Translations under genes and position numbers: made by a program
Part shown: positions 11,645 through 28,941 of the stretch, piece by piece
Layout of the letters: the number at the start of each line of letters is the position of its first letter
Position numbering within the stretch: the first letter of the stretch is position 1
Notes under the pieces: generated by a model
Seen by the model: only the letters and a program-made list of their open reading frames with translations
What the model was told of the DNA's origin: nothing
The model's database searches: none
Assembly (NCBI GenBank): GCA_016791475.1
Contig: JAEUWI010000046.1
Span: forward strand, 1-64,000
Reading direction: 5' to 3'
DNA length: 64,000 nucleotides
Source: Candidatus Hydrogenedentota bacterium
GTDB taxonomy: Bacteria; Hydrogenedentota; Hydrogenedentia; Hydrogenedentales; JAEUWI01

Positions 11645-12497
11645 TGTAACCCCTTCTCTTACCCGGTTAGGTCGGCGACTCGGCCTTGCGCTTCTTCGCA
11701 CACGCATGGACCAATGAACCGGAGCTGCCGTGGGTAGCCGCAGCCCTGCCGATTTCTTGCAAATTACCGCGAAAAAACTCGCGGCTTGGATGATCCTCAT
11801 CCCGAATGAAGTTATGAATCGGGCGAAACAGGGGGGTAGGAAATAAAGCCCAAAAACCCACAGTATCGCACGCCCATGCCTGATCATATCACCGAAGAAA
11901 TGTCATTGCAAGTCCTTTATTATAATATGTTTACAACTCTCCTCCTAACACACCCCATGTTCGCTTCCCGTCGACCGGGCAGCCGCCTGTAATTTTAATA
12001 AAGCCACTGTTTTCGAGGCCGCTTAACCCGCATAGCGCACCCAAAATTCCATTAAATATAAGTGTCGAAAATTTCGCGTTATGGCGGATTTCTGCCATTC
12101 ACTTCCGCAAATTTAGCCCTATTGAGAATAATTTACCGCAATTTCCTGCGTGCCCCATTCCGCAGCGTGGCCAGCCAACAGGTCCTTCGGAACCGTGTGG
12201 TGATGTTGGGCGGTCACGGGTGCGCGCCTCCGATGGCCGCACTTCGAGCCATGCCCGACCACGAGGATTCAGCGGTTCGGATGGCCGGGGCCCGCCCCTG
12301 GCCGACGGATGAAACGGCAAAGCTACACCAATCCCCGTGGCAAAGGAATGGAATAGTGAACACCGTTGTTCACTCTGGTGGTTAGTCATAGGTTTTTGAG
12401 TTTTCCTTGCGATATACTGTGGGCGTGTGCACCCGGACGGGCAGGTCTGAGGCACCAGAAAACACCGCCACAGCAGGTTCAGGAAGTACCTTTTGCC
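11645..12497. other. Divergent intergenic region of about 850 bp between the PEP-CTERM gene and the propeller/Fe-S cluster
   Basis: The minus-strand leader of the PEP-CTERM gene lies on the left and the first gene of the central cluster begins on the right. The middle (about 11900-12130) is strikingly AT-rich compared with the rest of the window, with TATAATAT at 11921-11928 and long A/T runs. Short open frames in the right half, on both strands, have Arg/Pro/Ser-rich composition and no family I recognise, so I do not call genes there. Confidence 0.55.
12413..12418 (+). promoter_or_regulatory. Putative -10 element for the central cluster
   Basis: TATACT lies about 80 bp upstream of the first gene of the cluster. 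The same hexamer serves as the apparent -10 at 41095, 42583 and 57524. No good -35 at the right spacing is visible here, so this is weak. Confidence 0.35.
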
Positions 12498-13964
12498 GTG
12501 AATATGAAATTCGATATCAACGCGCTGGATAACAATCGCAAAGCGAATTTGTATGCGATGGCGGGTGCGGGAACCATCTGCTCCCTCGCCGGCATTGTGT
12601 CCCTGATTTTATGGCTGGTCAGTGCGCCCGCCATCGTGGTGGAGGTACAGGTGCCCGGCACCGATGGCCTTCCCGATCTTTCCGCCCTGCAAGCCAAAGG
12701 CCCGGAGTTATCCGGGGTCTTCGCGAAGGGCGAAGGCGCGCCGTCGGATCTGCCGGGAATATGGAGCCAGTTTCGGGGACCCAATTCGGACAACATCGTA
12801 TTGGACGGTCCTCCTCTGGCTGCGGATTGGGGCAGCGACGGCCCGAAAGTGGAATGGGCCCTGCCGATCGGCGATGGCTACGCGGCGCCCGCCGTCTATG
12901 ATGGCTGTGTTTACCTGATGGACTACGACGTGGAAGGCCGGGCCGACGCCCTGCGCTGCCTTTCGCTGGCGGACGGCAAGGAAGTCTGGCGCCGTTCCTA
13001 CGAGATTAAGATCAAACGCAACCACGGGATGTCGCGGACCATTCCGGCGGTGAATGAGAAGTATGTGGTCACCATGGGGCCGAAGTGCCATGTGGTATGT
13101 CTTGATCGGGCCACGGGCGACTACCGCTGGGGTCTTGACCTGCAGCGTGACTATGGCACGGTGGAGCCCCTCTGGTACGCGGGTCAGTGTCCGCTGATAG
13201 TGGACGACGCGGTCATCCTGGCGCCGTCCGGAGAAGAGGTGCTGATGATGGCGGTAAGTTGCGAGACCGGCGAGGTGCTGTGGAAGGCGCCCAATCCCCG
13301 CAAGTGGGCCATGTCCCACGCATCCATCATCCCCATGACGGTGCTGGGCCGCAAGATGTACGTGTACAGCGCGATTGGCGGTGTTGCGGGCGTGGCGGCG
13401 GACGGACCGGAAGCGGGCAAACTGCTGTGGGATGTGCCTTGGGATGCGAAGGTGGTGGCCCCGTCGGTGGTGCATGCGGGCGACGACAAGATCTTCGTGA
13501 CGGCGGGCTACAGCACGGGCTCGATGATGCTCCGACTGAAAGAGTCCGGCGGCGCCTATGAGGCGGAAATTGTGAAGCGGACCTCGCCGGAAGAGGGGCT
13601 GGCCTGCGAACAGCAGACGCCGATCTTCCACAATGGTCTGCTGTACGCCATCATGCCGAAGGACGCGGGCGCGCTGAAGGGCCAGTTCGCCTGCTTCGAC
13701 ACCGAAGGGAATCTGGTGTGGTCCAGTGGGAACGACAACCGCTTTGGATTGGGCCCGTTCTTGCTGGCCGACAACAAGTTCTATATACTGGACGACGACG
13801 GCAAACTGACCATGATCGACGCCTCGACAAAAGAGTTCAAGAAGCTCGGCGAGGCACAGGTTTTGCAGGGTCATGACGCCTGGGGCCCCCTTGCCATCGC
13901 GGGTGATCGCCTTCTCGTGCGCGATATGAACAATCTGGCCTGTGTCAACGTGGGTGCGGCTTGA
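12498..13964 (+). CDS. Membrane-anchored PQQ-type beta-propeller protein (cluster gene 1)
   Basis: About 488 residues. I choose GTG 12498 because AGGAAG lies 11 bases upstream; ATG 12504 in the same frame is the alternative. One membrane helix lies near residues 18-42 (AMAGAGTICSLAGIVSLILWLV), which should place the rest in the periplasm. The body opens with WSQFRGPNSDNIV, the 'FRGP' entry typical of PQQ_2/BamB-like propellers, and shows repeated docking motifs such as LADGKEVWRR, ATGDYRWG and ETGEVLWKA. These motifs define the fold and do not prove that PQQ is bound; no dehydrogenase residues are recognisable. It heads the run of redox genes and is followed after 29 bp by the NHL-propeller gene. 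Confidence 0.8.
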   Translation: MNMKFDINALDNNRKANLYAMAGAGTICSLAGIVSLILWLVSAPAIVVEVQVPGTDGLPDLSALQAKGPELSGVFAKGEGAPSDLPGIWSQFRGPNSDNIVLDGPPLAADWGSDGPKVEWALPIGDGYAAPAVYDGCVYLMDYDVEGRADALRCLSLADGKEVWRRSYEIKIKRNHGMSRTIPAVNEKYVVTMGPKCHVVCLDRATGDYRWGLDLQRDYGTVEPLWYAGQCPLIVDDAVILAPSGEEVLMMAVSCETGEVLWKAPNPRKWAMSHASIIPMTVLGRKMYVYSAIGGVAGVAADGPEAGKLLWDVPWDAKVVAPSVVHAGDDKIFVTAGYSTGSMMLRLKESGGAYEAEIVKRTSPEEGLACEQQTPIFHNGLLYAIMPKDAGALKGQFACFDTEGNLVWSSGNDNRFGLGPFLLADNKFYILDDDGKLTMIDASTKEFKKLGEAQVLQGHDAWGPLAIAGDRLLVRDMNNLACVNVGAA

Positions 13965-13993: not shown

Positions 13994-15001
13994 ATGAAGG
14001 AACCGGTACGCAAGACAAAGCACCCCTACATCGTGGGCGCGTGCGTTGCGGCCATTGCCGGATTCTATTTTTATCTCGTGGCCGATAAGACCAAGTTCCC
14101 CGAGCCGGGAGAAAATCTCGTCTACGATATAAAGAAATTTGAAGACGTGGACAACGTGGCGACCCGCTACAAAGAGGGCAAGCCGATCGTGCCCACGGTC
14201 GACGGGCCAAAGGCGATGGAGATCGATGGGGCCGGCAACCTCTTCGTGGGCGGCAAAGGCGCGATCGCGGTGTACGACGCTTCGGGTGCGGAGACCTCCC
14301 GCATCGCGGTTGATGGCGCCGCGACTTGCCTGGAATTTACACCCGACGGTCGGCTTCTCGTGGGGCTGGAAGATCGGGTGGCGGTCCTTGGCGCGGACCA
14401 CAAGACCATGGCGACCTGGAGCGGCTTTGCGGAGCGGACCCTGATTACCTCCATCGCGGCCAACGCGGAGGAAGTATTTCTCGCGGATGCGGCGAACCGC
14501 TGCGTGCTCCGCGTGGACTATGACGGCAAGGTATTAAATGAAATTGGCAAAGCGGACGAAGCCCGGGACATTCCCGGCCTGGAAGTGCCGAGCCCGTATT
14601 TCGACATGGCTTTTGACGACGAAGGCTCCCTCTGGGTGGTCAATCCCGGCAAGCTGGGGCTGGAGCGCTATCGCAGCAATGGCGATATCGTGACCTCCTG
14701 GTATCGACCCTCACTGGAGCTGGACGGATTCTCAGGGTGCTGCAATCCCACCCACATCGCCTTCAACAGCGCGGGGCGTCTGGTCACCTGCGAGAAGGGG
14801 CTGGTTCGGGTAAAGATTTACGAAGTCACCGCGGGCAGCTTTGAAGAGTTGGTCGTCGGATCAAAATCCTTCAAGGTGGCCCAGTCGGTGAGCGACATGG
14901 TGGTGGATGCCTCGGACCGTGTGCTGGTGCTCGATTCCCGGCAGAAAGCCGTGCGCATCTTCGAGCCCGAAGCGCCGGCGGTGGCAAAGGCTGTTCCTTA
15001 G
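13994..15001 (+). CDS. Membrane-anchored NHL/six-bladed propeller protein with a GCCNP motif
   Basis: A 335-residue protein with one N-terminal membrane helix (YIVGACVAAIAGFYFYLVA, about 11-30) and a periplasmic propeller with repeats such as KAMEIDGAGNLFVGGKGAIA and FDMAFDDEGSLWVV. A segment at about 247-253, SGCCNPTHIAF, carries two adjacent Cys (249 and 250) and is followed by GRLVTCEKGLVRVKIYEV. I remember the 'GCCNP...SEKG' signature as a recurring feature of NHL proteins placed next to ferredoxin and NosR-like genes, but no function is known to me. The double Cys could bind a metal, form a vicinal disulfide or pair with a redox partner. AAGGAA lies eight bases upstream of ATG 13994. The tail LVLDSRQKAVRIFEPE completes the last blade. 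Confidence 0.75.
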   Translation: MKEPVRKTKHPYIVGACVAAIAGFYFYLVADKTKFPEPGENLVYDIKKFEDVDNVATRYKEGKPIVPTVDGPKAMEIDGAGNLFVGGKGAIAVYDASGAETSRIAVDGAATCLEFTPDGRLLVGLEDRVAVLGADHKTMATWSGFAERTLITSIAANAEEVFLADAANRCVLRVDYDGKVLNEIGKADEARDIPGLEVPSPYFDMAFDDEGSLWVVNPGKLGLERYRSNGDIVTSWYRPSLELDGFSGCCNPTHIAFNSAGRLVTCEKGLVRVKIYEVTAGSFEELVVGSKSFKVAQSVSDMVVDASDRVLVLDSRQKAVRIFEPEAPAVAKAVP

Positions 15002-15076: not shown

Positions 15077-15304
15077 ATGGATAAAGCGATGAATCGGCAG
15101 GCCTTCCTGGAGCGCCTGGTGCGCGGAAGCACCCTCCTCGGACTGGGCGGAATCGCCCTGGCCGCGACGCACGGATCGAAGACTCCGGAAGAGTGCTTCG
15201 AGACCACCACGCACTGTAAGGAGTGTTGGACGAACGCCTCCTGCAACCTACCGGAGAAAGGACTGGAGCCCGATGAGCGAGCGAAAAAAACTCGACAGGC
15301 GTGA
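15077..15304 (+). CDS. Small exported or membrane-bound four-cysteine protein
   Basis: 75 residues with an N-terminal hydrophobic segment (about 17-30, GSTLLGLGGIALAA) preceded by NRQAFLERLVRG. This looks like a Tat-type leader in which the RR pair is not intact. The rest is short and contains Cys 40, 47, 50 and 56 in ECFETTTHCKECWTNASC, then a charged tail. The four Cys could ligate a small metal centre or form disulfides; there is no CxxCH heme motif. GAGG lies about eight bases before ATG 15077. Its 3' end overlaps the start of the ferredoxin gene by 32 bases in a different frame, which suggests translational coupling and a shared complex. I do not recognise a named family. Confidence 0.65.
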   Translation: MDKAMNRQAFLERLVRGSTLLGLGGIALAATHGSKTPEECFETTTHCKECWTNASCNLPEKGLEPDERAKKTRQA

Positions 15305-15839
15305 TTTCATGCGCGGTGCCGCGGCGGTCGCTTTTACGGGAGCGACCTGGGCGGCGGTGGGCGAAAAGACCGAGACCAAGTACTGGCAGCTTGACCCGGC
15401 CAAGTGTACCCAGTGCGGCCGGTGCACCACGCACTGCGTATTGACGCCGAGCGCGGTGAAGTGCCTGAACCAGTTTGATATCTGCGGGTATTGCGACCTG
15501 TGCTTCGGCTACCTTCAGCCGGGCTCCCGCAACCTGGATACGGGCGCGGAGAACCAGCTTTGCCCCACAGCGGCCATCGAGCGGAAATACATCGAGGCGC
15601 CGTATTACGAATACAAGATCCACGAAGACAAGTGCATCGGCTGCGCCAAATGCGTGAAGGCCTGCCTGGTCTTCGGCAATGGCTCTTTCTATCTTCAGAT
15701 CCGACAGGACATCTGCATCAACTGCAACGAGTGCTCGATCGCAAAGTCGTGCCCCTCCGATTGCTTCAGCGAAGTGCCCGAGTCGAATCCCTACATGTTC
15801 CTCACCGGCGATACCCATCTCGCCCATCCGCCGGCATGA
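15273..15839 (+). CDS. Tat-exported multi-cluster ferredoxin
   Basis: 188 residues. The leader KLDRRDFMRGAAAVAFTGATWAA is a Tat signal with the RR pair at 9-10, so the folded Fe-S protein should be carried to the periplasm or the outer face of the membrane. Cys groups follow the 4Fe-4S pattern: 45/48/51/55 (CTQCGRCTTHC), 71/74/77 with 64 and 97 as possible partners, 121/124/127/131 (CIGCAKCVKAC) and 148/151/154 with 160/164 (CINCNECSIAKSC). Three to four clusters are likely. GGAG lies about four bases ahead of the start. The gene overlaps both neighbours (the stop overlaps the next ATG as ATGA). It is the natural periplasmic electron partner of the membrane polyferredoxin encoded next. Confidence 0.88.
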   Translation: MSERKKLDRRDFMRGAAAVAFTGATWAAVGEKTETKYWQLDPAKCTQCGRCTTHCVLTPSAVKCLNQFDICGYCDLCFGYLQPGSRNLDTGAENQLCPTAAIERKYIEAPYYEYKIHEDKCIGCAKCVKACLVFGNGSFYLQIRQDICINCNECSIAKSCPSDCFSEVPESNPYMFLTGDTHLAHPPA

Positions 15840-17107
15840 TCATGCGATACGTCTCCGCCCTCATCGCCCTGGTCGCCGCCACCGCAGTGCAAGGCGCACG
15901 CGCTATCGAGCTCAAGTTCGCCCCGCCGGACTTTGAGACCGAATATGCCATGCCCTATCTGTTTACGCCGGCGCCAGCCGGCAGCAACACCTGGTGGGAA
16001 TCGCTGATCCTTTTCGCGGCCTTGTCACTCACGACGTATATGGTCTTCAAGGCCCGGTCGCGCCGAGGGCTCTTTGCCATCAGCGTGTTTTCCCTGTTGT
16101 TCTTCGGGTTCTACCGCAAAGGCTGCATCTGCCCCGTGGGTTCGACGCAGAATGTCATGGCGGCGGTGTTCCTGCCCGACGTGGGCGTTTCCTGGGTTGT
16201 TGTATCATTCTTTGTCATGCCCCTGCTCTTTTCCCTCTTTTTCGGTCGGGTTTTCTGTGCGTCGGTCTGTCCCCTGGGCGCCATTCAGGAGCTGGTAGCC
16301 ATCGCCCCAATCCGTATCAATCCGGCGCTGGAGCGGGTGCTCGGCCTGGGCAAATACATGTACCTCGGACTGGCCACGCTGGGCGTGGCCACCGGCGCTG
16401 GCTTTCTGATTTGCCGCTGGGACCCTTTTGTCGGTCTGTACCGCATGGGCCACAGTTACAACATGCTTATCGCGGGCGCGCTCATGCTGCTCGTCGGCGT
16501 ATTTATCGCGCGCCCCTACTGCCGCTTTCTCTGCCCCTACGGTGTGTTGCTGGGCTGGATGTCGCGCTTCTCCAAGTTCCACCTGGAAATCCCCCCCTCC
16601 CCCTGCGTCGAGTGCCGTCTCTGCGAAGATTCCTGTCCCTACAATGCCATCGACATGCCTACCCCGCGCCACCTGGTGGAAGATCCGGCGGTCGGCAAGA
16701 AACGTACGCGCCTGCTGGTATTCCTGGCGCCCGTGTTCATCCTTCTGGGTGCCGTGGGCGGGTATCTTTTCCATGAGCCCCTCTCCCACATTCACCCGAC
16801 GGTGAGTCTGAGCGAGCGCATCGCCAAGGAGGATCGGGGTATCATCAAGGGCGAGGTCTACCTCGAGTCAGATACCTTCCGCAAGGAGAGCAAGACCGCA
16901 GCGACGCTGCATGCCGAGGCGCTGGCGGTCACCGAGAAGTTTAAGACGGGAAGCGCCCTCTTCGGCGCTTTTCTGGCCCTGATCATCAGCATCAAGCTGA
17001 TCGAGTTGTCCGTTGTGAAGAAGCGCACGATTTTCGAGCCACACAAGGAGACCTGCTTCAGTTGCGGCCGCTGTTATCCTTATTGCCCTGTTGAAGAAGG
17101 AGCGTAG
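15836..17107 (+). CDS. NapH/NosR-like membrane polyferredoxin
   Basis: 423 residues starting at ATG 15836, which overlaps the previous stop. A signal-like first helix is followed by about five further membrane segments (near 56-71, 76-93, 118-138, 172-192, 208-226) and late helices at about 292-312 and 371-395. Paired motifs CICP (97/99), CASVCP (141/145) and CRFLCP (229/233) are the Fer4_5 signature of NapH, NosR and RdxA-type proteins that pass electrons between quinol and periplasmic Fe-S centres. Two ordinary 4Fe-4S motifs follow: 257/260/263/267 and, at the C-terminus, 407/410/413/417. The FMN-binding domain of true NosR is absent, as are nos, nap and rnf genes. It is probably the trans-membrane step of the cluster. 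Confidence 0.85.
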   Translation: MIMRYVSALIALVAATAVQGARAIELKFAPPDFETEYAMPYLFTPAPAGSNTWWESLILFAALSLTTYMVFKARSRRGLFAISVFSLLFFGFYRKGCICPVGSTQNVMAAVFLPDVGVSWVVVSFFVMPLLFSLFFGRVFCASVCPLGAIQELVAIAPIRINPALERVLGLGKYMYLGLATLGVATGAGFLICRWDPFVGLYRMGHSYNMLIAGALMLLVGVFIARPYCRFLCPYGVLLGWMSRFSKFHLEIPPSPCVECRLCEDSCPYNAIDMPTPRHLVEDPAVGKKRTRLLVFLAPVFILLGAVGGYLFHEPLSHIHPTVSLSERIAKEDRGIIKGEVYLESDTFRKESKTAATLHAEALAVTEKFKTGSALFGAFLALIISIKLIELSVVKKRTIFEPHKETCFSCGRCYPYCPVEEGA

Positions 17108-17116
17108 TACCCTGGA

Positions 17117-18931
17117 ATGCTTGAGAAACGGGAGTTTGACAAGAGCGATTTCTTCTGGCGTCTCTCGACGACAGTAACGATAGTATCGGGTCTGTTTTCG
17201 GTCATTATCTTTATCCTGCTCGCGGTGAATTACTTTCAGATCACCCGGCTGGATCCGGTTAATCATGAGTTGTTGACCGAGTTGCGCCAGACTTATGCAT
17301 CCCTTCCCGAGAAGGACGAAGCGCTGGCCCAGCGAATTCGCGATTTGGATCTGATCACGCGCAGGGCTTTTTTCACGAGCCAGACCTTCCTGCAGGGCGG
17401 CGCGTGGATGATGCTCATCACGGTTTCGGTTTTCCTCATCGCCTTCAAGAATATGATTCGCTGGCGGCCCCATCTGCCGGAACTGGCGGATGTGCCCACG
17501 GCGGACAAAGAGTTCCTGGCTTATGCCCAGTCCCGCCATCTGATCACGTGGGCGGGCGTCGGGTTGCTTTTTGGAGGCATGATGACCGCCTACTTCAGCG
17601 AGAGCGCCCTGACGAAGGAAATGGTGGAGGCCGCGACCAGCGCGGCGTCCGCCGACGGTGCGGCGCCCGCCGACGGTGCGGCGCCCGCCGATCCCGCGGC
17701 GGCCCCGGCAGGCGATGCCGCCGCGGTGCCCGCCGTGGCCACGGTACCACCGCCCACGTGGGAGGAGATGCTGGTGAACTGGCCCAGTTTCCGGGGACCG
17801 GGGAGCAACGGGGTGGCCCATTTCACCACCGCGCCAACCACCTGGGATGTGGACGCGGGCACGAACATCAAGTGGAAAGCGGACTTGACGCTCCCCGGGA
17901 AGAACTCACCCGTATTCTGGGGCGGCAAGCTCTACATCAGCGCGGCGGACGAAACGACGCGCGAGGTATACTGCTACAATGCGGACACGGGTGAACAGCT
18001 CTGGAAACAGACGGTTCCGAACTTCCCCGGTACGCCGGCAGAATCACCCAAGGACGTGATGGAAGATACGGGCTTCGCCGCATCGACCATGGTGGCCCAC
18101 GGCGATATGGCCTTCGCGATTTTTGCCAACGGCGATCTCGTGGCCTACAAGTCCGACGGCACCCAGGCCTGGGGGAAGAACCTCGGGGTGGCGAAGAACC
18201 ACTACGGCTATTCATCCTCCCTGCTGGCCTATGACAAGCTCCTGTACGTGCAGTACGACGATTCGGAGAAGCCGAGGCTATTGGCCTTCGACACGGCCAC
18301 GGGCAATGAAGCGTGGACCGTAAACCGCAAGAAGATTTCCTGGGCCTCCCCCATCTTCGCAAAGACGAATGTGGGCGATCACCTGATCCTCACTTCGGAA
18401 AAGGATGTGGACGGGTACAATCCGTTGACGGGCGCGCCGCTATGGACCGTGGAGTGTCTGGGCGGCGAAGTGGCGCCGTCGGCGGCCTACGCGAACGGCA
18501 TGGTCTTTGCCGCGAACGAGTATGCCATGGCCAACGGCATCACCCTCGGCGGCACGCCGGAAGCGGTGGAGGCCACCGTGACCTGGGAGTTCGACGAACT
18601 CCTGCCGGAAGTCTCCAGCCCGGTGGGCGATGGCGAGCGGTTCTATTACGGCACCACGGTGGGCGATATCGTTTGCCTCGATGCGAAGACCGGTGAAAAC
18701 CTGTGGACGCAGGAAGTCGAGGATGGCATAGACGCATCGCCAATTCTTGTGGGCGACCGGGTGTACCTCGCGGACAAGAGCGGCATCATGTATATCTTCC
18801 GCGCCAGCGCGACCTATGAGGAGCTTGGGAAACTGAAGCTCGGTTCGGCGTCCTATGCGACCCCGGCCTATCTGGACAAACGCATGTACGTCCGTACCCC
18901 GGAACAACTCTACTGTATCGAGGCGCCATGA
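17117..18931 (+). CDS. Membrane-anchored PQQ-type beta-propeller protein (cluster gene with three N-terminal helices)
   Basis: 604 residues. About three membrane segments occupy the first third (near 20-40, 96-112 and 136-156). Then comes a low-complexity Ala/Pro/Asp linker containing a repeated DGAAPA unit, then a propeller that starts at NWPSFRGPGSNGVAHF. Blade motifs include ADTGEQLWKQ, TATGNEAWTVN and KTGENLWTQEV. The helices and linker hold the propeller off the membrane on the outer face. An AAGGAG stands about 12 bases before ATG 17117, and its stop overlaps the start of the HydCB-like gene, which ties it to the electron-transfer module. Function unknown; the propeller may be a docking platform. 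Confidence 0.8.
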   Translation: MLEKREFDKSDFFWRLSTTVTIVSGLFSVIIFILLAVNYFQITRLDPVNHELLTELRQTYASLPEKDEALAQRIRDLDLITRRAFFTSQTFLQGGAWMMLITVSVFLIAFKNMIRWRPHLPELADVPTADKEFLAYAQSRHLITWAGVGLLFGGMMTAYFSESALTKEMVEAATSAASADGAAPADGAAPADPAAAPAGDAAAVPAVATVPPPTWEEMLVNWPSFRGPGSNGVAHFTTAPTTWDVDAGTNIKWKADLTLPGKNSPVFWGGKLYISAADETTREVYCYNADTGEQLWKQTVPNFPGTPAESPKDVMEDTGFAASTMVAHGDMAFAIFANGDLVAYKSDGTQAWGKNLGVAKNHYGYSSSLLAYDKLLYVQYDDSEKPRLLAFDTATGNEAWTVNRKKISWASPIFAKTNVGDHLILTSEKDVDGYNPLTGAPLWTVECLGGEVAPSAAYANGMVFAANEYAMANGITLGGTPEAVEATVTWEFDELLPEVSSPVGDGERFYYGTTVGDIVCLDAKTGENLWTQEVEDGIDASPILVGDRVYLADKSGIMYIFRASATYEELGKLKLGSASYATPAYLDKRMYVRTPEQLYCIEAP

Positions 18932-21384
18932 CACAGGACACACTGGAACTGGATATCAGCCACATCGATGCGATTGTGGAGGCGAAGGGGCGGGGCCCGG
19001 AGGCGGTAATCCCGATCCTTCAGGCAATCCAGTCGGAATACCGCTACCTGCCCAACGCGGCCCTGGAACGGGTGTGCGAACTGACCGATATTCAGCCCGC
19101 ATCCATCGAGGGTGTGGCGACGTTTTATTCCCAGTTTCGCCGGGACCCCGTGGGTGAACACCTGATCAGTCTCTGCGATGGCACGGCGTGCCACGTAAAG
19201 GGCGCGGAGGATGTCCACGAGGCGATGGCGGAGCGCCTGAACCTCAAGAAAGGCGAAGACACCGACGCCGACCGCAAGTACACCATACAGAAGGTGGCCT
19301 GCATCGGGTGCTGTTCCCTGGCCCCCGCGATGCAGATTGACGGCGTCACCTACGCCAACGTGGCCCCTGATTCCGTTGCCGCCACGTTGCGCGATTTCGA
19401 GAATCGCGAGTCCAAGAAGGGGACGCTTGAGAAGCCCGTTCACCGCGAAGTGGTGGAAAACGGCGCGGAAATCCGCATCGGCCTGGACTCCTGCTGTGTG
19501 GCGGGCGGCACCGACCGCATCGAAGCCGCGGTGGAAGAAGCACTGGCCGGCATCCACTCGACCGTCCCCATCAAGCACGTGAGCTGCGTCCACATGTGCC
19601 ACCAGGTGCCCGTGCTGGAAATCATTCAGGAGAACAAGGCCCCGGCCATGTACCTCCGCGTGACGGTGGACGACGTTCCGGGAATCATTGCGCGCCACTT
19701 CAATCCTCAGAATCCGTTGACCCGCCTGCGCTCTGCGGCGCTTCGCTGGGCCGACAGCCTCTATGTGGATGCGGACACGAGCGAGAACGCCGTGAAGCGC
19801 CATGACGGCAATGTGCGCGATCCCCAGGTGACCGCCTTCCTCGGCAATCAGATGCACATCGCCACGGAATACCATGGCGAGATGGATCCCTACAGCCTGG
19901 ACGAGTACTTGAAGAAGGGCGGCTTCGCGGCGGTGGAGCGTATCCTCTTTGGCAAGTTGACCGGCGATGTGATGCTGTTCCGCCATCAGAAGAAATCCCT
20001 GCGCGACCTTCCGAAGAGCGACAAGGCCTGGACCGCCCAGCAGATCATCGACGAAGTGCTCGCGAGCGGCGTGCGCGGTCGCGGCGGCGCGGGCTTCCCC
20101 ACAGGGAAAAAGTGGCAGTTCGTCCACGATGCGCCGGCGCCCACCGGCAAGAAGTATGTTATCTGCAACGGCGACGAGGGCGACCCCGGCGCCTTCATGG
20201 ATCGCATGATCCTTGAGTCCTACGCGTACCGCGTGATCGAAGGCATGATGATCAGCGCCCTGGCCGTGGGTTCCGACGAGGGCATCCTCTATATCCGCGC
20301 GGAGTATCCCCTGGCGACAAAACAGATGCGCCGGGCCATTGAAGATTGCATGGAAGCGGGTATTCTCGGCGAGAATTTCATGGGTACGGGCCGCACCCTG
20401 CACCTGCGGGTGAAGGAGGGCGCTGGCGCTTTCGTATGCGGCGAGGAGACGGCGCTTATCGCCTCCCTCGAAGGCAAGCGCGGCATGCCCACGATGCGTC
20501 CCCCCTACCCCGCGATTTCCGGCCTCTACGGCTGCCCCACGCTGATCAACAACGTGGAAACGCTCTCGGTGATCCCTTGGATCGTGCGTAAGGGCGCGGC
20601 GGAATTCGCCAAGCTCGGCACGGAGAAGAGCAAAGGCACGAAGGTATTTTCGCTGGCCGGCAAGATACGCAATGGTGGCCTGATCGAAGTGCCCATGGGC
20701 ATCACGATCCGCCAGATCGTGGAAGACATCGGCGGCGGCATCGCGAACGGACGGAAGTTCAAAGCGATCCTCGTGGGCGGCCCTTCGGGGGGCGTGATTC
20801 CCGCGTCCATGGCCGATACGCCCGTGGACTACGAGGCCCTTTCGCAGATTGGCGCCATGATGGGCTCCGGCGGCATGGTGGTGCTCGACGACTCCGACTG
20901 CATCGTGGAAATGGCGCGCTATTTCCTCTCCTTCACCCAGGACGAGTCCTGCGGCAAGTGTTCCCCCTGCCGCATCGGCACGATGCGCCTGAAGGAGATG
21001 CTCACGCGCCTTTGCAACGGCCAGGGCAAAGAGCAGGACATTGAAATGATGGAGGAGCTGGGCAAGGTCGTAAAGAGCCAGAGCCTGTGCGGCCTGGGCA
21101 AGACCGCGCCCAACCCGGTGCTGACGGCACTCATGTATTTCCGTGAGGAATTCGAAGCGCACATCGCGGGCCGGTGCCCGGCGGGCAAGTGCAAGCCGCT
21201 TATCGACTACTGGGTGGAGGACAACTGCATCGGCTGCACCAAGTGCGCCCAGGTGTGCCCCGTGGACTGCATCGAGTCCGCGCCCTACAAGATGCACCAT
21301 ATTGATTTGAGTATTTGCACGCGATGCGATTACTGCCTGGTGGCCTGTCCGGTGGACGCCATCAAGGCGGGCTCCCGGGTATAA
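18928..21384 (+). CDS. HydC-HydB (NuoE-NuoF)-like fused flavin/Fe-S NAD(P)-oxidoreductase subunit
   Basis: 818 residues joining what are normally two proteins. Residues 1-155 are a NuoE/HydC domain with the 2Fe-2S ligands C83, C88, C125 and C129. Residues about 180-255 are the thioredoxin-like N-terminal domain of HydB/HoxF, with C189/C190, C220 and C224; the first usual Cys seems replaced by Gly 185. Residues about 330-660 are the FMN/NAD domain with GRGGAGFPTGKKW (384-396) and NGDEGDPGAFMDR (414-426), the latter the HydB/Hnd form and not the complex I form. Next is CGKCSPCRIGTMR with C721 for a 4Fe-4S centre, then two C-terminal 4Fe-4S motifs (767-780 and 797-807). This is the core found in electron-bifurcating and NAD-linked hydrogenases, but no hydrogenase gene is present. 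It begins in an ATGA overlap. Confidence 0.92.
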   Translation: MTQDTLELDISHIDAIVEAKGRGPEAVIPILQAIQSEYRYLPNAALERVCELTDIQPASIEGVATFYSQFRRDPVGEHLISLCDGTACHVKGAEDVHEAMAERLNLKKGEDTDADRKYTIQKVACIGCCSLAPAMQIDGVTYANVAPDSVAATLRDFENRESKKGTLEKPVHREVVENGAEIRIGLDSCCVAGGTDRIEAAVEEALAGIHSTVPIKHVSCVHMCHQVPVLEIIQENKAPAMYLRVTVDDVPGIIARHFNPQNPLTRLRSAALRWADSLYVDADTSENAVKRHDGNVRDPQVTAFLGNQMHIATEYHGEMDPYSLDEYLKKGGFAAVERILFGKLTGDVMLFRHQKKSLRDLPKSDKAWTAQQIIDEVLASGVRGRGGAGFPTGKKWQFVHDAPAPTGKKYVICNGDEGDPGAFMDRMILESYAYRVIEGMMISALAVGSDEGILYIRAEYPLATKQMRRAIEDCMEAGILGENFMGTGRTLHLRVKEGAGAFVCGEETALIASLEGKRGMPTMRPPYPAISGLYGCPTLINNVETLSVIPWIVRKGAAEFAKLGTEKSKGTKVFSLAGKIRNGGLIEVPMGITIRQIVEDIGGGIANGRKFKAILVGGPSGGVIPASMADTPVDYEALSQIGAMMGSGGMVVLDDSDCIVEMARYFLSFTQDESCGKCSPCRIGTMRLKEMLTRLCNGQGKEQDIEMMEELGKVVKSQSLCGLGKTAPNPVLTALMYFREEFEAHIAGRCPAGKCKPLIDYWVEDNCIGCTKCAQVCPVDCIESAPYKMHHIDLSICTRCDYCLVACPVDAIKAGSRV

Positions 21385-21857
21385 CGAGTCTATAAGAGAA
21401 TATGTAACCCTCTAACCGCCTGAAGAAGTCATAAACGTTGGGCTCAGCATTTTTGCGGCCTATAGTCTAGCGTAGAACGCCCAATAGTTGTATGGTGACA
21501 TAAAATTGAATCGCGCACCAACGTGGCTTAGCCTTCCAGGCTGAGACAAAGCCCATTTTGGATATCGACGGGCCTTGCGTATTGTTGGTGGTTGAAAGTC
21601 AAGAGACAAGAAAGAGGGCGACTCAAAATTTTAACGAGCGCTCTGCCTCAGCCTGGAAGGCTAAGCCACGTTGGCGCCCTTCCGCGCTTCAGGTTAACTT
21701 CAAAACGTATCAGATTGCAGGAGTGCCCAGTCGAATGGGTGCCACACGACATCGAAATGATGTGCCAACGCCGGTGGCGTAGCTTGAGAACGACCAAGTA
21801 GGTTAAATTTCGCCGTGATCGCTTCTGCAAACTGGCGGCTTCTAAACGGAGTAATTC
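21385..21857. other. Gap of about 470 bp inside the redox cluster, holding a palindromic element
   Basis: No gene is visible. The left part is AT-rich relative to the flanks. The middle holds the 28-bp inverted repeat listed separately. The last about 30 bases carry the GGAG ribosome-binding site of the next gene. The insertion splits two genes that would otherwise be expected to be adjacent. Confidence 0.6.
21518..21674. repeat. Element bounded by perfect 28-bp inverted repeats
   Basis: 21518-21545 is the exact reverse complement of 21647-21674. The arms contain CTTAGCCTTCCAGGCTGAG and its complement, and enclose 101 bp that encode nothing recognisable. Size (157 bp) and perfect ends suggest a MITE-like or REP-like element. 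It could also form a long hairpin in RNA. No flanking direct duplication is obvious to me. Confidence 0.85.
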
Positions 21858-23372
21858 ATGCCCACCGTAACGATTAACAATCGAGCGATCGAAGTCGAGC
21901 CCGGAACGACGCTGCTGCAGGCGGCGCGGAAACTGGACATCGAGATCCCGACGCTGTGCTACTGGGAAGGGGTGCGCCCGATGAACTCGTGCATGCTTTG
22001 CACGGTGCGCAATACCCAGACGGGGCAACTCCATTCTTCGTGCTCCACGGTGGTGCAGGACGGCATGCAGATCGAGACGGACACGGGCGATGTGTGCGAG
22101 GCGCGCAAGGAAGTGCTGGAGCTGATCCTCAGCGAGCACATTGGCGACTGCGAAGCCCCCTGCACCCACACCTGCCCCGCTTCAATGAACATTCCGGTCA
22201 TGATGCGGCAGATCTATGACGGCGATTTCGCCGACGCGGCCTACACGATCCACAACGGCCTGGTCATTCCCTGGACCCTGGGCTATGTGTGTCCCGCGCC
22301 CTGCGAGAACCCCTGCCGCCGTAAGAGCTACGACGAGACGATGAAAATCCGTACGCTGCATCGAAATGTGGCGGAGAAATCACTCAAGGAGAATCCTGAA
22401 CTGCTGGAGTGCCCGCCGGACACGGGGAAGCGCACGGCCGTTATCGGTGCGGGTGCGACGGGTATGGCGGCGGCCTGGGTCTTCCGCAAGGAGGGCCACG
22501 CCGTGGTCGTCTATGAAAAAGACGACAAGGCCGGCGGCAAGCTGCGGGAATTGCCCGACGACAAGCTTCCCAAGGAAGTACTCGATACCGAGATCGATTT
22601 CATCACCCGTTTGGGCGTGGATTTCCGCTATAACCAGAAAGTGGACGCGGAGATGCTGGAGGCGATCCGCGAAGAATACGATGCCGTGGTCATTGCATGC
22701 GCGGGCCTGGGCAAGGCGGGTGGCAAGGTTTTCGAGGCGAAGGAGCACAAGCTCACGGTGATGGCGGTGGGCAATGGCAAGACGGCGGCCGCGTGGGCCA
22801 ACCGCTACATGGTCAGCGTGGATGCGAAGCCGGAGCCGGAGCTTTTCCAGTCGAAGATTGGCAAAATGGTGAAGGCGGAGATGGAGGCCATGCGCGATCA
22901 CAACGAAAATAAAGAGGCGATGCTGGTGGTTCCCATCACCACCGAGGAACCGCTGGCCGATTCGCGCAAAGAAGCCGGGCGGTGCCTCCACTGCGACTGC
23001 CGCAAGCGCGTGACCTGCACCCTGCGCAAGTGGTCCCACGTGTACAACGCGGAGCAGCGCAAGTACAACACGACGGAGACCAAGGATGTTCGCTACCTCG
23101 GTCTGGGCGGCGACGTCTACCTGGAGCCGGGCAAGTGCATCCGGTGCGGCCTGTGCGTGGAAATTGCCAACATGCACGGCGAGGATATCGGCCTGGCCTT
23201 CATCGGCCGCGGTTTCGATATGGAAATCAAGGTGCCCTTCAATCGGAGTCTCGACGAGGGCCTGCGCAAATCCGCCGCGGCGTGTGTAGCGGCGTGTCCC
23301 ACGGCGGCTATCGCCTTCCGGAACAAGGAAGACATCGAAGGGTGTCACACGACGGTTTGGATTGAACTCTAA
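21858..23372 (+). CDS. 2Fe-2S ferredoxin / GltD-like Fe-S flavoprotein lacking the NAD(P)H domain
   Basis: 504 residues. Residues 1-75 are a NuoG/HydA-type 2Fe-2S domain (C34, C45, C48, C62). Residues about 95-160 match the 4Fe-4S domain of glutamate synthase small subunit and NfnL (C98, C102, C106, then C145, C149, C153). Residues 193-285 are one Rossmann unit (VIGAGATGMAAAW, then VVYEKDDKAGGKLREL), as for FAD binding. In GltD a second, NADPH-binding Rossmann domain would follow; here the chain passes within about 25 residues to MAVGNGKTAAAWANRYM, which normally comes after it. The C-terminus has CLHCDCRKRVTC (376-387), CIRCGLC (427-433) and C476/C480. It should therefore accept electrons from a partner, presumably the HydCB-like protein upstream, and not bind NAD(P)H itself. 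GGAG lies six bases before the ATG. Confidence 0.85.
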   Translation: MPTVTINNRAIEVEPGTTLLQAARKLDIEIPTLCYWEGVRPMNSCMLCTVRNTQTGQLHSSCSTVVQDGMQIETDTGDVCEARKEVLELILSEHIGDCEAPCTHTCPASMNIPVMMRQIYDGDFADAAYTIHNGLVIPWTLGYVCPAPCENPCRRKSYDETMKIRTLHRNVAEKSLKENPELLECPPDTGKRTAVIGAGATGMAAAWVFRKEGHAVVVYEKDDKAGGKLRELPDDKLPKEVLDTEIDFITRLGVDFRYNQKVDAEMLEAIREEYDAVVIACAGLGKAGGKVFEAKEHKLTVMAVGNGKTAAAWANRYMVSVDAKPEPELFQSKIGKMVKAEMEAMRDHNENKEAMLVVPITTEEPLADSRKEAGRCLHCDCRKRVTCTLRKWSHVYNAEQRKYNTTETKDVRYLGLGGDVYLEPGKCIRCGLCVEIANMHGEDIGLAFIGRGFDMEIKVPFNRSLDEGLRKSAAACVAACPTAAIAFRNKEDIEGCHTTVWIEL

Positions 23373-23442: not shown

Positions 23443-24675
23443 ATGGTGCGATTTCTTCTGCTGGGTCTGGTCGCGTTGGGTCTCTATGGAACGGCACACG
23501 GCGGCGACGCCCGCCAGTTTCGCGGACCTGATCGCGATGGAAAGTTTGACGAGAAGGGACTGCTGAAGGCGTGGCCCGAGGGCGGCCCGGAGTTGCTCTG
23601 GGAAATTGACCTCATCGGCATGGGCTACGCCTCCCCCACCGTCGTCGGCGACACCATCTATGTGCCCGGCATGATCGAGACGAACCAGGGCTATCTCTTT
23701 GCGCTCTCCCTCGACGGCCAAGAGAAATGGCGGCTGAATTACGGGCAGGAAACGGAAGATTCGCAGGCACCAGGCGCACGCTCCACCCTCACGGTGGATG
23801 GCGCACACGGATACCTTATGTCGGGCCTGGGCGTCCTCTACAAGATCGACCTTGGCGCGCCGGCCATCACATGGCAGGTGGACCTGTTGAAGCGCTTCCA
23901 GGGGAAGCAGATTCAGTGGGCAATCGCAGAATCCCCGCTGGTCGATGAAAAGCTGGTGTATTGCATGCCCGGCGGACCCGACGCCGCCGTCGCCGCGCTG
24001 GACAAAGCAACCGGTGAGACCGTCTGGACTACCAAGGACTTCGGGGATGCCTCGGCTTATTGCTCGCCCAACATCATCGTCCACAACGGGCGCCGTATCC
24101 TCGTAAGCATGACGGGCAAGGGACTCGTCGGCGTGGACGCGGCAAGTGGCGAGGTGCTGTGGACCCGCGACCATCCAGATCAGTGGGATATTCACGCCAA
24201 CACGCCCGTGTACGCCGACGGCATGCTCTATTTTGTTGCCGGCAGCAAGGTGGGCGGCGTCATGCTCAAGCTCTCCGACGATGGCACGGAGCTGACCGAG
24301 GTATGGAAAGACACGGCACTGGATACCCTGCACGGCGGTGTGGTGCTTCATGAAGGCTATATCTACGGAACGGCCCATCGCTCGGGCAGGGAAATGCTCT
24401 GTCTCGAGCTCAAGACCGGCAAGATCATGTGGCGCACGCCGGAGGTTACGGAGGGGGCGCTTGTCTATGCGGACGGCATGCTCTACAACTACGAGGGGCC
24501 GATGAAGGGCGTCGTGAGTTTGATCAATGCGTCGCCGGAGGGCTTCGAGCGCACGGGGGAATTCAAGGTCACGAAGGGCGAGGCGAAGCACTGGGCGCAC
24601 CCGGTGGTGGCGAATGGGACCCTGTATATTCGGCGCGGCGAGTATCTCTGGGCCTATGATGTAAAGGCGAAGTGA
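23443..24675 (+). CDS. Secreted PQQ-type beta-propeller protein
   Basis: 410 residues with signal peptide MVRFLLLGLVALGLYGTAHGG, then ARQFRGPDRDGKFD and about seven blades (DGQEKWRLN, ATGETVWTTKD, ASGEVLWTRDH, KTGKIMWRTPE). It ends cleanly at a last blade, LYIRRGEYLWAYDVKAK. It is the last plus-strand gene of the redox run, 70 bp after the GltD-like gene and converging on the ArsG-like gene with a gap of 8 bp. No enzyme residues or metal motif stand out. Probably a periplasmic scaffold or substrate-binding partner of the cluster. Confidence 0.8.
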   Translation: MVRFLLLGLVALGLYGTAHGGDARQFRGPDRDGKFDEKGLLKAWPEGGPELLWEIDLIGMGYASPTVVGDTIYVPGMIETNQGYLFALSLDGQEKWRLNYGQETEDSQAPGARSTLTVDGAHGYLMSGLGVLYKIDLGAPAITWQVDLLKRFQGKQIQWAIAESPLVDEKLVYCMPGGPDAAVAALDKATGETVWTTKDFGDASAYCSPNIIVHNGRRILVSMTGKGLVGVDAASGEVLWTRDHPDQWDIHANTPVYADGMLYFVAGSKVGGVMLKLSDDGTELTEVWKDTALDTLHGGVVLHEGYIYGTAHRSGREMLCLELKTGKIMWRTPEVTEGALVYADGMLYNYEGPMKGVVSLINASPEGFERTGEFKVTKGEAKHWAHPVVANGTLYIRRGEYLWAYDVKAK

Positions 24676-24683
24676 TCCGTCTT

Positions 24684-25370
24684 TCACCAGAGCACCAGTG
24701 AATAGGCCAGCGTAAAGTAGAAACCGACGGCGATTGAAATGACGCCGGCGGTTTTTCGCAGCCACCACTCGACGCGGTTCACGCCGCGCACCACGCGCCC
24801 GACACGATGGGCGGCGAAACCCACGAGGTAGACTACGATTACCACGGGGAGGGATACGCCCAGTGAGAAGGCCAGCGGGAGATACACACAGGAATGGTGC
24901 AGAACCGCCATTTGGATGAGCCCGCCGAAGAAGAGGGCGGCGGAGGTGGGGCAAAAGGACAAGGCCAGAAACAGCCCCAACACGGTCGCACTCCACAGAC
25001 CGCCGCGGCTGGCATAGCGCACGGCCCAGGCCTTGAGGCGTCCCCGGTGGAGTTTCACCGAGACCAGTTCCAGCAGAAACAATCCCATAATCATGAGGAT
25101 CGGCCCCATCAGGCGAAACAGATACTTCTGGAGACCCTGCGACACCACCGGCGCCGTCACGAGACTGCTCACGACCAGTGCCGCCAGTATCACGAAGGCC
25201 AGCGCCTGCCCCAGGGTGTAGCAGCCACCGGCCAGCAGCAACGTTCGCGGCCGCTCGATACGTCGCGCGATAAAGCTGATGGCGGTGACGTTGGTGGCAA
25301 GCAGACACGGGCTGATCGACGTCATGATGCCCAGGACAAAGGCCGGTCCGGCGGCGAAGACCCAGTCCAT
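24684..25370 (-). CDS. ArsG family / CcdA-DsbD-like membrane protein
   Basis: 228 residues with about six membrane helices and almost no loops. Two Cys sit where CcdA/DsbD and ArsG proteins have them: C22 in SISPCLLATNVTAISFIARR (helix 1) and C140 in SFCPTSAALFFGGLIQ (helix 4). In CcdA/DsbD this pair passes reducing power from cytoplasmic thioredoxin to periplasmic thiol proteins. In the described ArsEFG system the same kind of protein is assigned to export of aromatic arsenicals. The start overlaps the stop of the upstream ArsF-like gene, so the two are co-translated. Which activity applies here cannot be told from sequence; the Cys pair and context make me favour thiol-electron transfer. 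Confidence 0.8.
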   Translation of the reverse strand: MDWVFAAGPAFVLGIMTSISPCLLATNVTAISFIARRIERPRTLLLAGGCYTLGQALAFVILAALVVSSLVTAPVVSQGLQKYLFRLMGPILMIMGLFLLELVSVKLHRGRLKAWAVRYASRGGLWSATVLGLFLALSFCPTSAALFFGGLIQMAVLHHSCVYLPLAFSLGVSLPVVIVVYLVGFAAHRVGRVVRGVNRVEWWLRKTAGVISIAVGFYFTLAYSLVLW

Positions 25371-25849
25371 CAGTCCGCCTTCTCGCGTCCATCGAGCGCG
25401 GCCCGCACCTCGCCGCGCACGTAGTTCATGTAAGCCTCCTTATCGTACACCAACTCCCAGATGCGGCTCAGGCTTCGGTACTCCGTCTGCCGCCCCCCCT
25501 CAAAACGGACCAGCACCACGGCCTTGGTATAAAGCCGGAATTCGTCAACGAAATGGGTATTGGCGGCAAGGTCAACGTCCACGCGGCGCCACTCAACGCG
25601 CCCGCGCGTCAGATCGTTCTTGAAATGAGCCTCCAATACCTCGCGGGTGTACACTTCCAGGTTCTGACATGTCGTGCAGTCCTTTCCCATGTCCATGTAA
25701 TACACGATCAGCTCCGTAACGGGAGAGGCCGGCGCAGGGTCGACGGCGCCCGACGCCGCACCTTCGGACAGGACCACATAGGCCATACTGCCGAGAGCAA
25801 ACAGAAGCACCAGCGTGGTAAAAAGCGATTGGAATGATTTTTTCGGCAT
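25370..25849 (-). CDS. ArsF family thioredoxin-fold protein, membrane-anchored
   Basis: 159 residues from ATG 25849 (chosen because the following MPKKSFQSLFTTLVLLFALGSMAYVVL is a good anchor; the longer in-frame start adds a non-protein-like stretch). After a short linker comes ELIVYYMDMGKDCTTCQNLE, a thioredoxin-like strand and CxxC (C58, C61). It continues with RREVLEAHF-type helix sequence, VEWRRVDVDLAANTHFVDEF, RLYTKAVVLVRFEGGR and RIWELVYDKEAYMNYVRGEV, all matching the family named after ArsF of the nitrophenylarsenate-reducing system. Many members occur where no arsenic gene is present, as here. It is probably a periplasm-facing redox partner of the ArsG-like protein, with which it overlaps by ATGA. 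Confidence 0.78.
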   Translation of the reverse strand: MPKKSFQSLFTTLVLLFALGSMAYVVLSEGAASGAVDPAPASPVTELIVYYMDMGKDCTTCQNLEVYTREVLEAHFKNDLTRGRVEWRRVDVDLAANTHFVDEFRLYTKAVVLVRFEGGRQTEYRSLSRIWELVYDKEAYMNYVRGEVRAALDGREKAD

Positions 25850-26081
25850 GGTAGCCACGGTATGTTGTACCCCGGCGCCGCGCAGCGCGGGCGGGGCTGC
25901 AAGTGGAAATGGGTGCGCATCGAAACCGCATTGGCGAGCGACCACTATTCATTCGCCATACGGACCCGCACGGTGTCATCCGTGGCAAAACGCGTCCAGT
26001 ATACCGCGCCCGGTCCCGCTGCCGCGAAACAGGATAATAGGCCTTACCCTGACGGCGCCATTCGATTCACAGGTTCCGCGC

Positions 26082-27395: not shown

Positions 27396-27648
27396 TGGTA
27401 AAACCCTCTGTGAATTTCCACCGGCGAAGTACCGGTGGTCTGCCTGTAATTAGCGGCGCTGCCGCCGCGTGGCTTATAATGGACTTGGGTGCCATGACGG
27501 ATCCCGCTGCGAAATAGCAGGCGCCCAGCCTTGAATACAACTCTAAAGGAACGGCGCCCGTTCCTTCAACATGGCGGCCCCGCGTTGCCCGGCAGGCATG
27601 CCGCCCCAATGCAGTGAGCAGTAGAAATCGGAAGGAGTCCCAGCGCAG

Positions 27649-28941
27649 ATGAAGATTGTTTACATCGTACCGGGAACGGGGGGCACATTCTACTGCCAGA
27701 ACTGCATGCGGGATATCGAGTTGGTCCGGGCGCTGCGGCGTATGGGCCACGACGTACTCATGATCCCGGTCTATCTGCCGGTGCTCATCGACTCGGGCGA
27801 GATCGGCAAAGGCGTCCCCGTGTTCTTCGGCGGCATCAATTGCTACCTCCAGCAGAAGTTCTCCCTTTTTCGTTACACACCGCGCTGGATGGATCGCCTC
27901 TTTGACACATCGTGGATGCTGCGAAAAGCGGCGAAACAGGAAGGTACAACCGAAGCGGCCGGACTCGGACCCATGACCCTCTCGATGCTTCAGGGGCCGG
28001 ATGGCAACCAGAAGAAGGAGCTGGAGCGCATGATGGCCTGGCTGGTGGAGCAGGAGAAACCGGATGTCATCCACCTCTCCAATGCGCTGCTGCTGGGGAT
28101 GGCGCGCACGCTTAAGCAAAACCTGAAGGTGCCCCTGTTTTGCAGTCTGCAGGACGAAATGCCCTGGCTGGACGCCATCGACGATCCCTATAACCGGCTT
28201 TGCTGGGACGCCATGACCGATTGCAGCCGCGATGTGGACGCGTTTGTGGCGGTGAGCCAGTGGTACGCCGATGAAATGGCCGTGCGGATGGCGCTTACAC
28301 CGGAAAAGATTCAGGTAATCCATCTGGGCATCAAGTGCGATGACATTCCCAAAGCGCCCATGACCTTCGAGCCTCCGGTGATTGGATATCTTTCGAAGAT
28401 GACCGATTCCCTCGGGCTGGGTCGACTGGTGGACGCCTTTATTCATCTGAAGCAGCACCCGCGCCTCAAAGATCTCAAATTGAGGGCGACCGGGGGCCAG
28501 GTCGGCTCGGATGCCACGTACATCAAGTGGCTCAAGCAGAAGTTGCACAAGCACGGCTTCGAACATGATGTGGAATTCATGGAAGAATTCGATATCGAAA
28601 CACGCCGCGAGTTCATCCAGTCTTTGTCGGTCATGTCGGTTCCGGCGCCCGAGGGCGAGGCCTTCGGGCTGTTCATCATCGAAGCGAACGCCGCGGGCAT
28701 TCCGGTGGTGCAGCCGAGGGCGGGGGCCTATCCCGAAATCGTGGGGGCGACGGGTGGAGGACTGATTTACGACGGCCATGACCCTGAGGCCTTGGCCAAG
28801 TCGCTGGAAACCGTCCTGCTGGACGCGGAAGCCGCACGGGCTCTGGGGGCGAAAGGTCGTGAGGCCGTGGCGAAGAAATTTTCAACCGAGCGGATGGCCA
28901 ACGACACCATCGCGCTGTATTCGAGGTTCGCTGTTACATGA
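27649..28941 (+). CDS. GT4-type glycosyltransferase
   Basis: 430 residues with the two-domain GT-B layout. The N-terminal domain starts MKIVYIVPGTGGTFYCQNCMRDIELVRALRRMGHDV, the usual glycosyltransferase-4 opening. The C-terminal domain has VIHLGIKCDD, VIGYLSKMTDSLGLGRLVDAF and the donor-binding EX7E motif in PEGEAFGLFIIEANAAGIPVVQP. It should transfer a sugar from a nucleotide-sugar donor, with retention; the acceptor is unknown. GGAAGGAG stands about 10 bases before the ATG. Its stop overlaps the start of the next propeller gene, so a glycosyltransferase and a membrane-anchored propeller are made together, which is an unusual pairing. Confidence 0.88.
   Translation: MKIVYIVPGTGGTFYCQNCMRDIELVRALRRMGHDVLMIPVYLPVLIDSGEIGKGVPVFFGGINCYLQQKFSLFRYTPRWMDRLFDTSWMLRKAAKQEGTTEAAGLGPMTLSMLQGPDGNQKKELERMMAWLVEQEKPDVIHLSNALLLGMARTLKQNLKVPLFCSLQDEMPWLDAIDDPYNRLCWDAMTDCSRDVDAFVAVSQWYADEMAVRMALTPEKIQVIHLGIKCDDIPKAPMTFEPPVIGYLSKMTDSLGLGRLVDAFIHLKQHPRLKDLKLRATGGQVGSDATYIKWLKQKLHKHGFEHDVEFMEEFDIETRREFIQSLSVMSVPAPEGEAFGLFIIEANAAGIPVVQPRAGAYPEIVGATGGGLIYDGHDPEALAKSLETVLLDAEAARALGAKGREAVAKKFSTERMANDTIALYSRFAVT

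Follow-up and report, generated by a model that had tools for sequence, protein, structure and literature searches.

The closest described systems are the transhydrogenases StnABC, with its StnC subunit (8OH5; PMC10482914), and Nfn-ABC, with NfnA (9BOV, 9N5U); both subunits have the same domain order as the protein described here. In StnC, the cluster chain C7-C6-C5-C4-C3 connects the NADPH/FAD site with the core, and K170 is a ligand of the FAD-proximal cluster, its mutation being harmful to StnC (PMC10482914). In the wider Bfu family, the variants proposed include enzymes that use a quinone as third substrate and enzymes fed by additional subunits (PMC9304861). In Wolinella, NapH has been proposed to oxidize quinol; it passes electrons on to NapG and has NapF, a cytoplasmic Fe-S protein, as a binding partner (PMC5928378). 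The phylum Hydrogenedentota has been described as lacking cultured representatives, in work that centred on its bifurcating hydrogenases (PMC11406978).

The window, that is, the whole stretch of DNA analysed, comprises 64,000 nucleotides of contig JAEUWI010000046.1 from a Candidatus Hydrogenedentota bacterium; its features are listed in Table 1. One of its genes encodes a 504-aa protein with the domain order 2Fe-2S, GltD-type 4Fe-4S, FAD Rossmann half, short FAD tail and C-terminal 4Fe-4S. An earlier note on this DNA had read the order as NuoG-type 2Fe-2S, GltD-type 4Fe-4S and one Rossmann unit; Pfam recovers all three parts (Fer2_4, Fer4_20 and, from residue 192, the beginning of one dinucleotide-binding Rossmann fold, where Pyr_redox_2 matches in part and slightly under its cut-off), but the C-terminal 4Fe-4S region (residues 370-487) had been overlooked. 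NF009454 (657 aa) is the closest NCBIfam model, and the solved chains most similar in sequence are 9BOV_A, 8OH5_C (StnC) and 9N5U_A (NfnA). A Foldseek search with the AlphaFold model (mean pLDDT 76.6, mostly >90 in the FAD domain) placed 9BOV_A, 8OH5_C and 9N5V/9N5U_A at the top, with E values of 2e-32 to 9e-28. By both sequence and fold, the protein is a homologue of BfuA of the StnC/NfnA type.

Table 1. Features of the locus, with positions in the window
Feature	Position	Strand	Evidence
Membrane-anchored PQQ_2-type propeller protein, block-conserved	12366..13964	+	
Membrane-anchored NHL/SGL-type propeller protein, block-conserved	13994..15001	+	
NapG-like polyferredoxin with Tat signal	15273..15839	+	
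NapH-like membrane Fe-S protein, CX3CP motifs and two 4Fe-4S motifs	15836..17107	+	
TMPQQ, membrane-anchored BamB/PQQ_2-type beta-propeller protein, 604 aa	17117..18931	+	
HydCB, fused HydC-HydB (BfuC-BfuB), 818 aa, every bifurcation-core cysteine kept	18928..21384	+	
Truncated BfuA/StnC-like subunit, 504 aa, without NADPH domain	21858..23372	+	Pfam, alignments, Foldseek
NuoG/HydA-type 2Fe-2S domain, residues 3-76; C34, C45, C48, C62 invariant	21864..22085	+	Fer2_4 9.5e-18
GltD-type 4Fe-4S domain, residues 98-178; C98, C102, C106, C145, C149, C153	22149..22391	+	Fer4_20 8.8e-13
First segment of the FAD-type Rossmann fold, residues 190-282; GIP loop lost, GxGxxG and E220 retained	22425..22703	+	
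Deletion junction; ~175 residues extra here in full-length relatives	22704..22727	+	alignment
Second FAD segment remnant (VFEAKEHKLTVMAVGNGKTAAAWANRYM); GGD motif lost	22728..22814	+	alignment
C-terminal Fe-S region: C376, C379, C381, C387; C427, C430, C433, C480	22965..23318	+	
Glycosyltransferase gene; immediately 3' of the truncated subunit in clade B	27649..28941	+	

Matches to NF009454 and to StnC/NfnA run to residue ~282 and restart only in the C-terminal Fe-S region. Alignment against six full-length homologues from other phyla, each encoded next to HydC-HydB, places a gap between DAVVIAC(A)G (~282) and VFEAKE..AVGNGKTAA (~291-311), and the three comparators in which the gap was measured have 173-180 extra residues at this point. 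The absent stretch includes the NADPH-domain motifs GGGNTAIDAAR and YRRTEKEMPA, so that the NAD(P)H-binding domain is missing, as the earlier note had it, and the alignment resumes on both sides of the junction, in agreement with its view that the flanking parts of the fold are kept. The figure it gave for the gap, about 120 residues, was too low, as the loss extends into the second FAD segment: the whole NADPH domain and the start of that segment are gone (~175 residues), leaving the end of the segment (VFxAxE...AVGNGKTAA) without the GGD motif. The truncated subunit therefore lacks the NADP(H)-binding domain that BfuA has in the Stn/Nfn-Bfu transhydrogenases, and loss of NADPH binding is strongly supported by the alignments. 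It is much less probable, indeed very improbable, that another protein supplies an NADPH domain in trans, as no separate gene for such a domain was noted among the conserved neighbours and the flavin-ring contacts that it would serve are gone. Identification as the glutamate synthase small subunit GltD was ruled out, since the NADPH domain is absent; the genome carries another gene, at a different locus, for a GltD-like protein, and there is no glutamate synthase large subunit among the conserved neighbours (HydCB and the NapG/NapH block).

The distribution of the truncated form was analysed in Hydrogenedentota, Omnitrophota and a sample of 291 genomes. A profile search found it in 43 of 68 Hydrogenedentota genomes, a count that includes contig-end fragments and leaves out G062, where the match lies inside a 1077-aa frame; a single-sequence search (E<=1e-60) gave matches in 40 of the 68. 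The deletion is common to all complete Hydrogenedentota homologues, which form two clades (A and B) of about 502 and 488 aa, and this shared loss makes the earlier conclusion that the electrons do not come from NAD(P)H well supported. Of the 117 Omnitrophota genomes, two gave a match, in each case to a longer open frame and confined to the first part of the protein. In-frame TGA codons in some homologues, considered as possible selenocysteine sites, turned out to be ordinary stops at or past the C-terminus. Outside Hydrogenedentota, the truncated form was found in the 291-genome sample only in G239, a member of another phylum represented by six genomes. Its 542-aa version has no NADPH domain and keeps the complete second FAD segment (IVVNRKTYETNVPGIFTGGN) and, judged by this alignment, is an intermediate. 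Trees built from residues 1-282 and from HydB each place all truncated forms in one group (support 100/97 and 100/99, respectively) with G239 basal, both trees being midpoint-rooted and some outgroup branches long; the phylogeny thus indicates that the deletion has a single shared origin in one well-supported clade. The genomes are metagenome assemblies, which could favour an assembly deletion, a danger that the earlier note had pointed out, or a pseudogene, but the same junction recurs in 43 Hydrogenedentota genomes, in open frames and in a single clade of one origin, and we regard such an artefact as excluded.

What the deletion has left behind was assessed in 30 truncated proteins. The cysteines of the 2Fe-2S domain, H94, C98, C102, C106, C145, C149 and C153, as well as C376, C379, C381, C387, C427, C430, C433 and C480, are invariant in all of them, with one exception, an ambiguous letter. 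These ligands correspond to the StnC path C7-C6-C5-C4-C3, individual clusters being assigned by alignment; a further cluster of the ferredoxin-like region of full-length relatives is lost, as judged from its missing cysteines. The position of StnC K170 is occupied by His (H168) in 30/30 of the truncated Hydrogenedentota proteins, whereas Lys is found there in G239 and in all six full-length homologues. Three features found in 6/6 full-length forms are lost in the truncated clade: the GIP loop, the GGD motif and the glycine that follows DAV..A. The FAD-ring contacts of the Stn/Nfn enzymes (GIP loop, StnC R239) are missing along with Lys170. Of the dinucleotide-binding features, GxGxxG is kept with one exception per clade, at G199, E220 is found in every truncated protein and R230 in nearly every one. 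Cys281 (window 22698-22700), in the region of the former FAD ATG-type motif, is newly fixed in 29/30.

With GxGxxG and E220 in place and the flavin-ring features gone, the dinucleotide site may survive next to a decayed flavin-ring site. The word flavoprotein used in the earlier note is therefore open to doubt: the protein may still bind FAD or a different dinucleotide, but the truncated subunit may be an Fe-S wire, not a working flavoprotein. An unlikely, if still credible, alternative is a true flavin relay, in which FAD remains bound and redox active, its ring being accessible to a donor or acceptor, either a protein or a small molecule. The near invariance of GxGxxG, E220 and R230, the high-confidence prediction of the FAD-domain fold and the full second FAD segment of the G239 intermediate are in keeping with such a relay, but it is hard to reconcile with the loss of the three flavin-ring features named above, and with a GG motif that is broken in several clade B members. 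The eroded pocket could also mean that the subunit is a structural leftover that holds HydCB together without any third substrate, and the C1/C2 branch of StnC serves stability or assembly, not electron transfer, according to the authors (PMC10482914). A passive scaffold, however, would need neither the invariant path ligands nor the fixation of the new His and of Cys281, and we consider this explanation quite improbable.

The upstream partner HydCB has NfnB/StnB as its nearest solved relatives (best PDB matches). Its core cysteines (clusters A1, B1, B2, B3 and B4) are kept in 20/20 aligned homologues, save one that is kept in 19/20; HydC and HydB are separate genes in G239. HydCB and the truncated subunit together carry the sequence features of the Bfu family, which suggests bifurcation at the HydCB core and a truncated subunit that would feed it. 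The suggestion of the earlier note that electrons arrive from another subunit is plausible in this general form, but the HydCB core would itself handle NADH and ferredoxin, so the third partner should be something else, most likely the NapG/NapH module. HydCB and the truncated subunit are separated by 473 bp (window 21385-21857), as against about 10-30 bp in relatives. This spacer contains a 38-nt inverted repeat (21515-21552 / 21640-21677) that resembles REP/MITE-type elements and recurs on about ten further contigs of the genome; Rfam gave no match over window 12-32 kb.

In both Hydrogenedentota clades the gene order is PQQ-NHL-NapG-NapH-TMPQQ-HydCB-truncated BfuA, with NapG and NapH overlapping by 4 bp in the window, and in G239 it is TMPQQ-HydC-HydB-truncated BfuA. 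TMPQQ is present in 43/43 genomes with truncated BfuA and in 1/25 without it (Fisher p about 2e-17, kinship ignored). The NapH-like protein has CX3CP motifs and two C-terminal 4Fe-4S motifs and the NapG-like protein has a Tat signal, as in NapGH, with scores under the family cut-offs (TIGR02163, 48.8 vs 213 bits; TIGR00397, 19.8 vs 178.9 bits). Hydropathy and positive charges suggest that both ferredoxin motifs of NapH lie on the cytoplasmic side; its predicted model had low confidence (mean pLDDT 65.3) and was left out of the fold search. The genome has its own canonical complex I, distinct from the HydCB/NapGH locus, which is therefore not complex I. Downstream, further BamB/PQQ_2-type propeller genes start at 23443, 26082 and 28938 (window 23443-30326), and the glycosyltransferase is kept in both clades. 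A CcdA-like membrane protein and a thioredoxin-like protein (window 24684-25945, minus strand; named by sequence inspection, no Pfam match at E 0.01) trail the block in many clade A genomes.

Two genomes depart from this arrangement. G054 (locus L048, 4.5-14 kb) has a second HydCB-truncated BfuA copy with no adjacent NapG, NapH or TMPQQ; a PQQ propeller, a glycosyltransferase and a propeller accompany this copy. G327, from another phylum (L081, 10-19 kb), has propeller-NHL-NapG-NapH-TMPQQ with no adjacent HydCB or truncated BfuA, which suggests that this block can act as an independent module. The membrane and HydCB-truncated BfuA modules thus appear separable, and both genomes could speak for a soluble enzyme, made of HydCB and the truncated subunit and served by a soluble partner, that shares only regulation or a wider process with NapG, NapH and the propellers. 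This seems rather improbable to us given the near-perfect co-occurrence and adjacency over two phyla and the 4-bp overlap of the TMPQQ stop codon with the HydCB start in the window.

Since truncated BfuA nearly always lies beside genes for membrane Fe-S proteins, its probable role is to link NADH/ferredoxin chemistry with the membrane and not with NADPH. We consider it somewhat better than an even chance that an NADP(H)-blind BfuA wire joins the bifurcating core, which would serve NADH and ferredoxin, to a membrane partner of the NapH type and, through it, to quinone or the periplasm. Truncated BfuA would sit on the HydCB core, which would exchange electrons with NADH and ferredoxin by bifurcation of the Bfu/HydABC kind, and the retained chain C7-C6-C5-C4-C3 would still lead to this core. 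With no NADPH domain, flavin-ring contacts or side-branch cluster(s) left, the FAD-proximal cluster, with His in place of StnC Lys170, would become the outer terminal and would swap electrons with a protein docked in the space emptied by the NADPH domain. The likeliest candidate is the NapH-like membrane protein of the same block, through its cytoplasmic Fe-S part, by analogy with the binding of NapF by Wolinella NapH. Such a membrane-linked enzyme could have as its third substrate either (mena)quinone or a redox protein of the periplasm (NapG, the propellers). Oxidation of NADH by an acceptor at the menaquinone level could then power the reduction of ferredoxin, or the process could run the other way.

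The locus thus offers a concrete candidate for a connection between NADH/ferredoxin and the membrane in Hydrogenedentota, in which removal of a single domain has apparently turned a transhydrogenase subunit into a wire blind to its substrate; an intermediate form survives in a different phylum. That it represents a phylum-wide, so far undescribed membrane-linked bifurcating enzyme, in which HydCB and an NADPH-less BfuA would connect NADH/ferredoxin to quinone or the periplasm via NapH/NapG, with membrane-anchored beta-propellers, is a tentative proposal that we hold to be possible but on balance would not yet bet on. The open-access papers searched contain no description of a Bfu enzyme with NapG, NapH and propellers and nothing relevant on a Hydrogenedentota NapH/propeller system; no such type was found in PMC9304861, where the term 'NapH' is absent. 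Types 2 and 3 of the Bfu family (PMC9304861) are similar in combining a BfuBC core and a BfuA that additional subunits feed. The NapGH menaquinol dehydrogenase of the Wolinella nap system likewise combines a Tat polyferredoxin with a CX3CP membrane protein, but the proteins described here score far under the NapG/NapH cut-offs and are accompanied by beta-propellers and HydCB, and no nitrate reductase genes were noted in the conserved block. The 2Fe-2S GltD-like proteins of NF009454 (PRK12814), about 657-688 aa, which are encoded beside HydC-HydB in other phyla, have the same domain order and the nearest length, but retain the NADPH domain. Finally, StnC and NfnA share with the truncated subunit a HydB/HydC-type partner and all ligands of the path clusters, whereas the truncated subunit has no NADPH domain, no flavin-ring contacts, His for Lys170, no FdhF-like C-terminus and one ferredoxin-like cluster fewer, and, unlike in StnABC and Nfn-ABC, HydC and HydB are fused here and linked to NapG, NapH and propellers.
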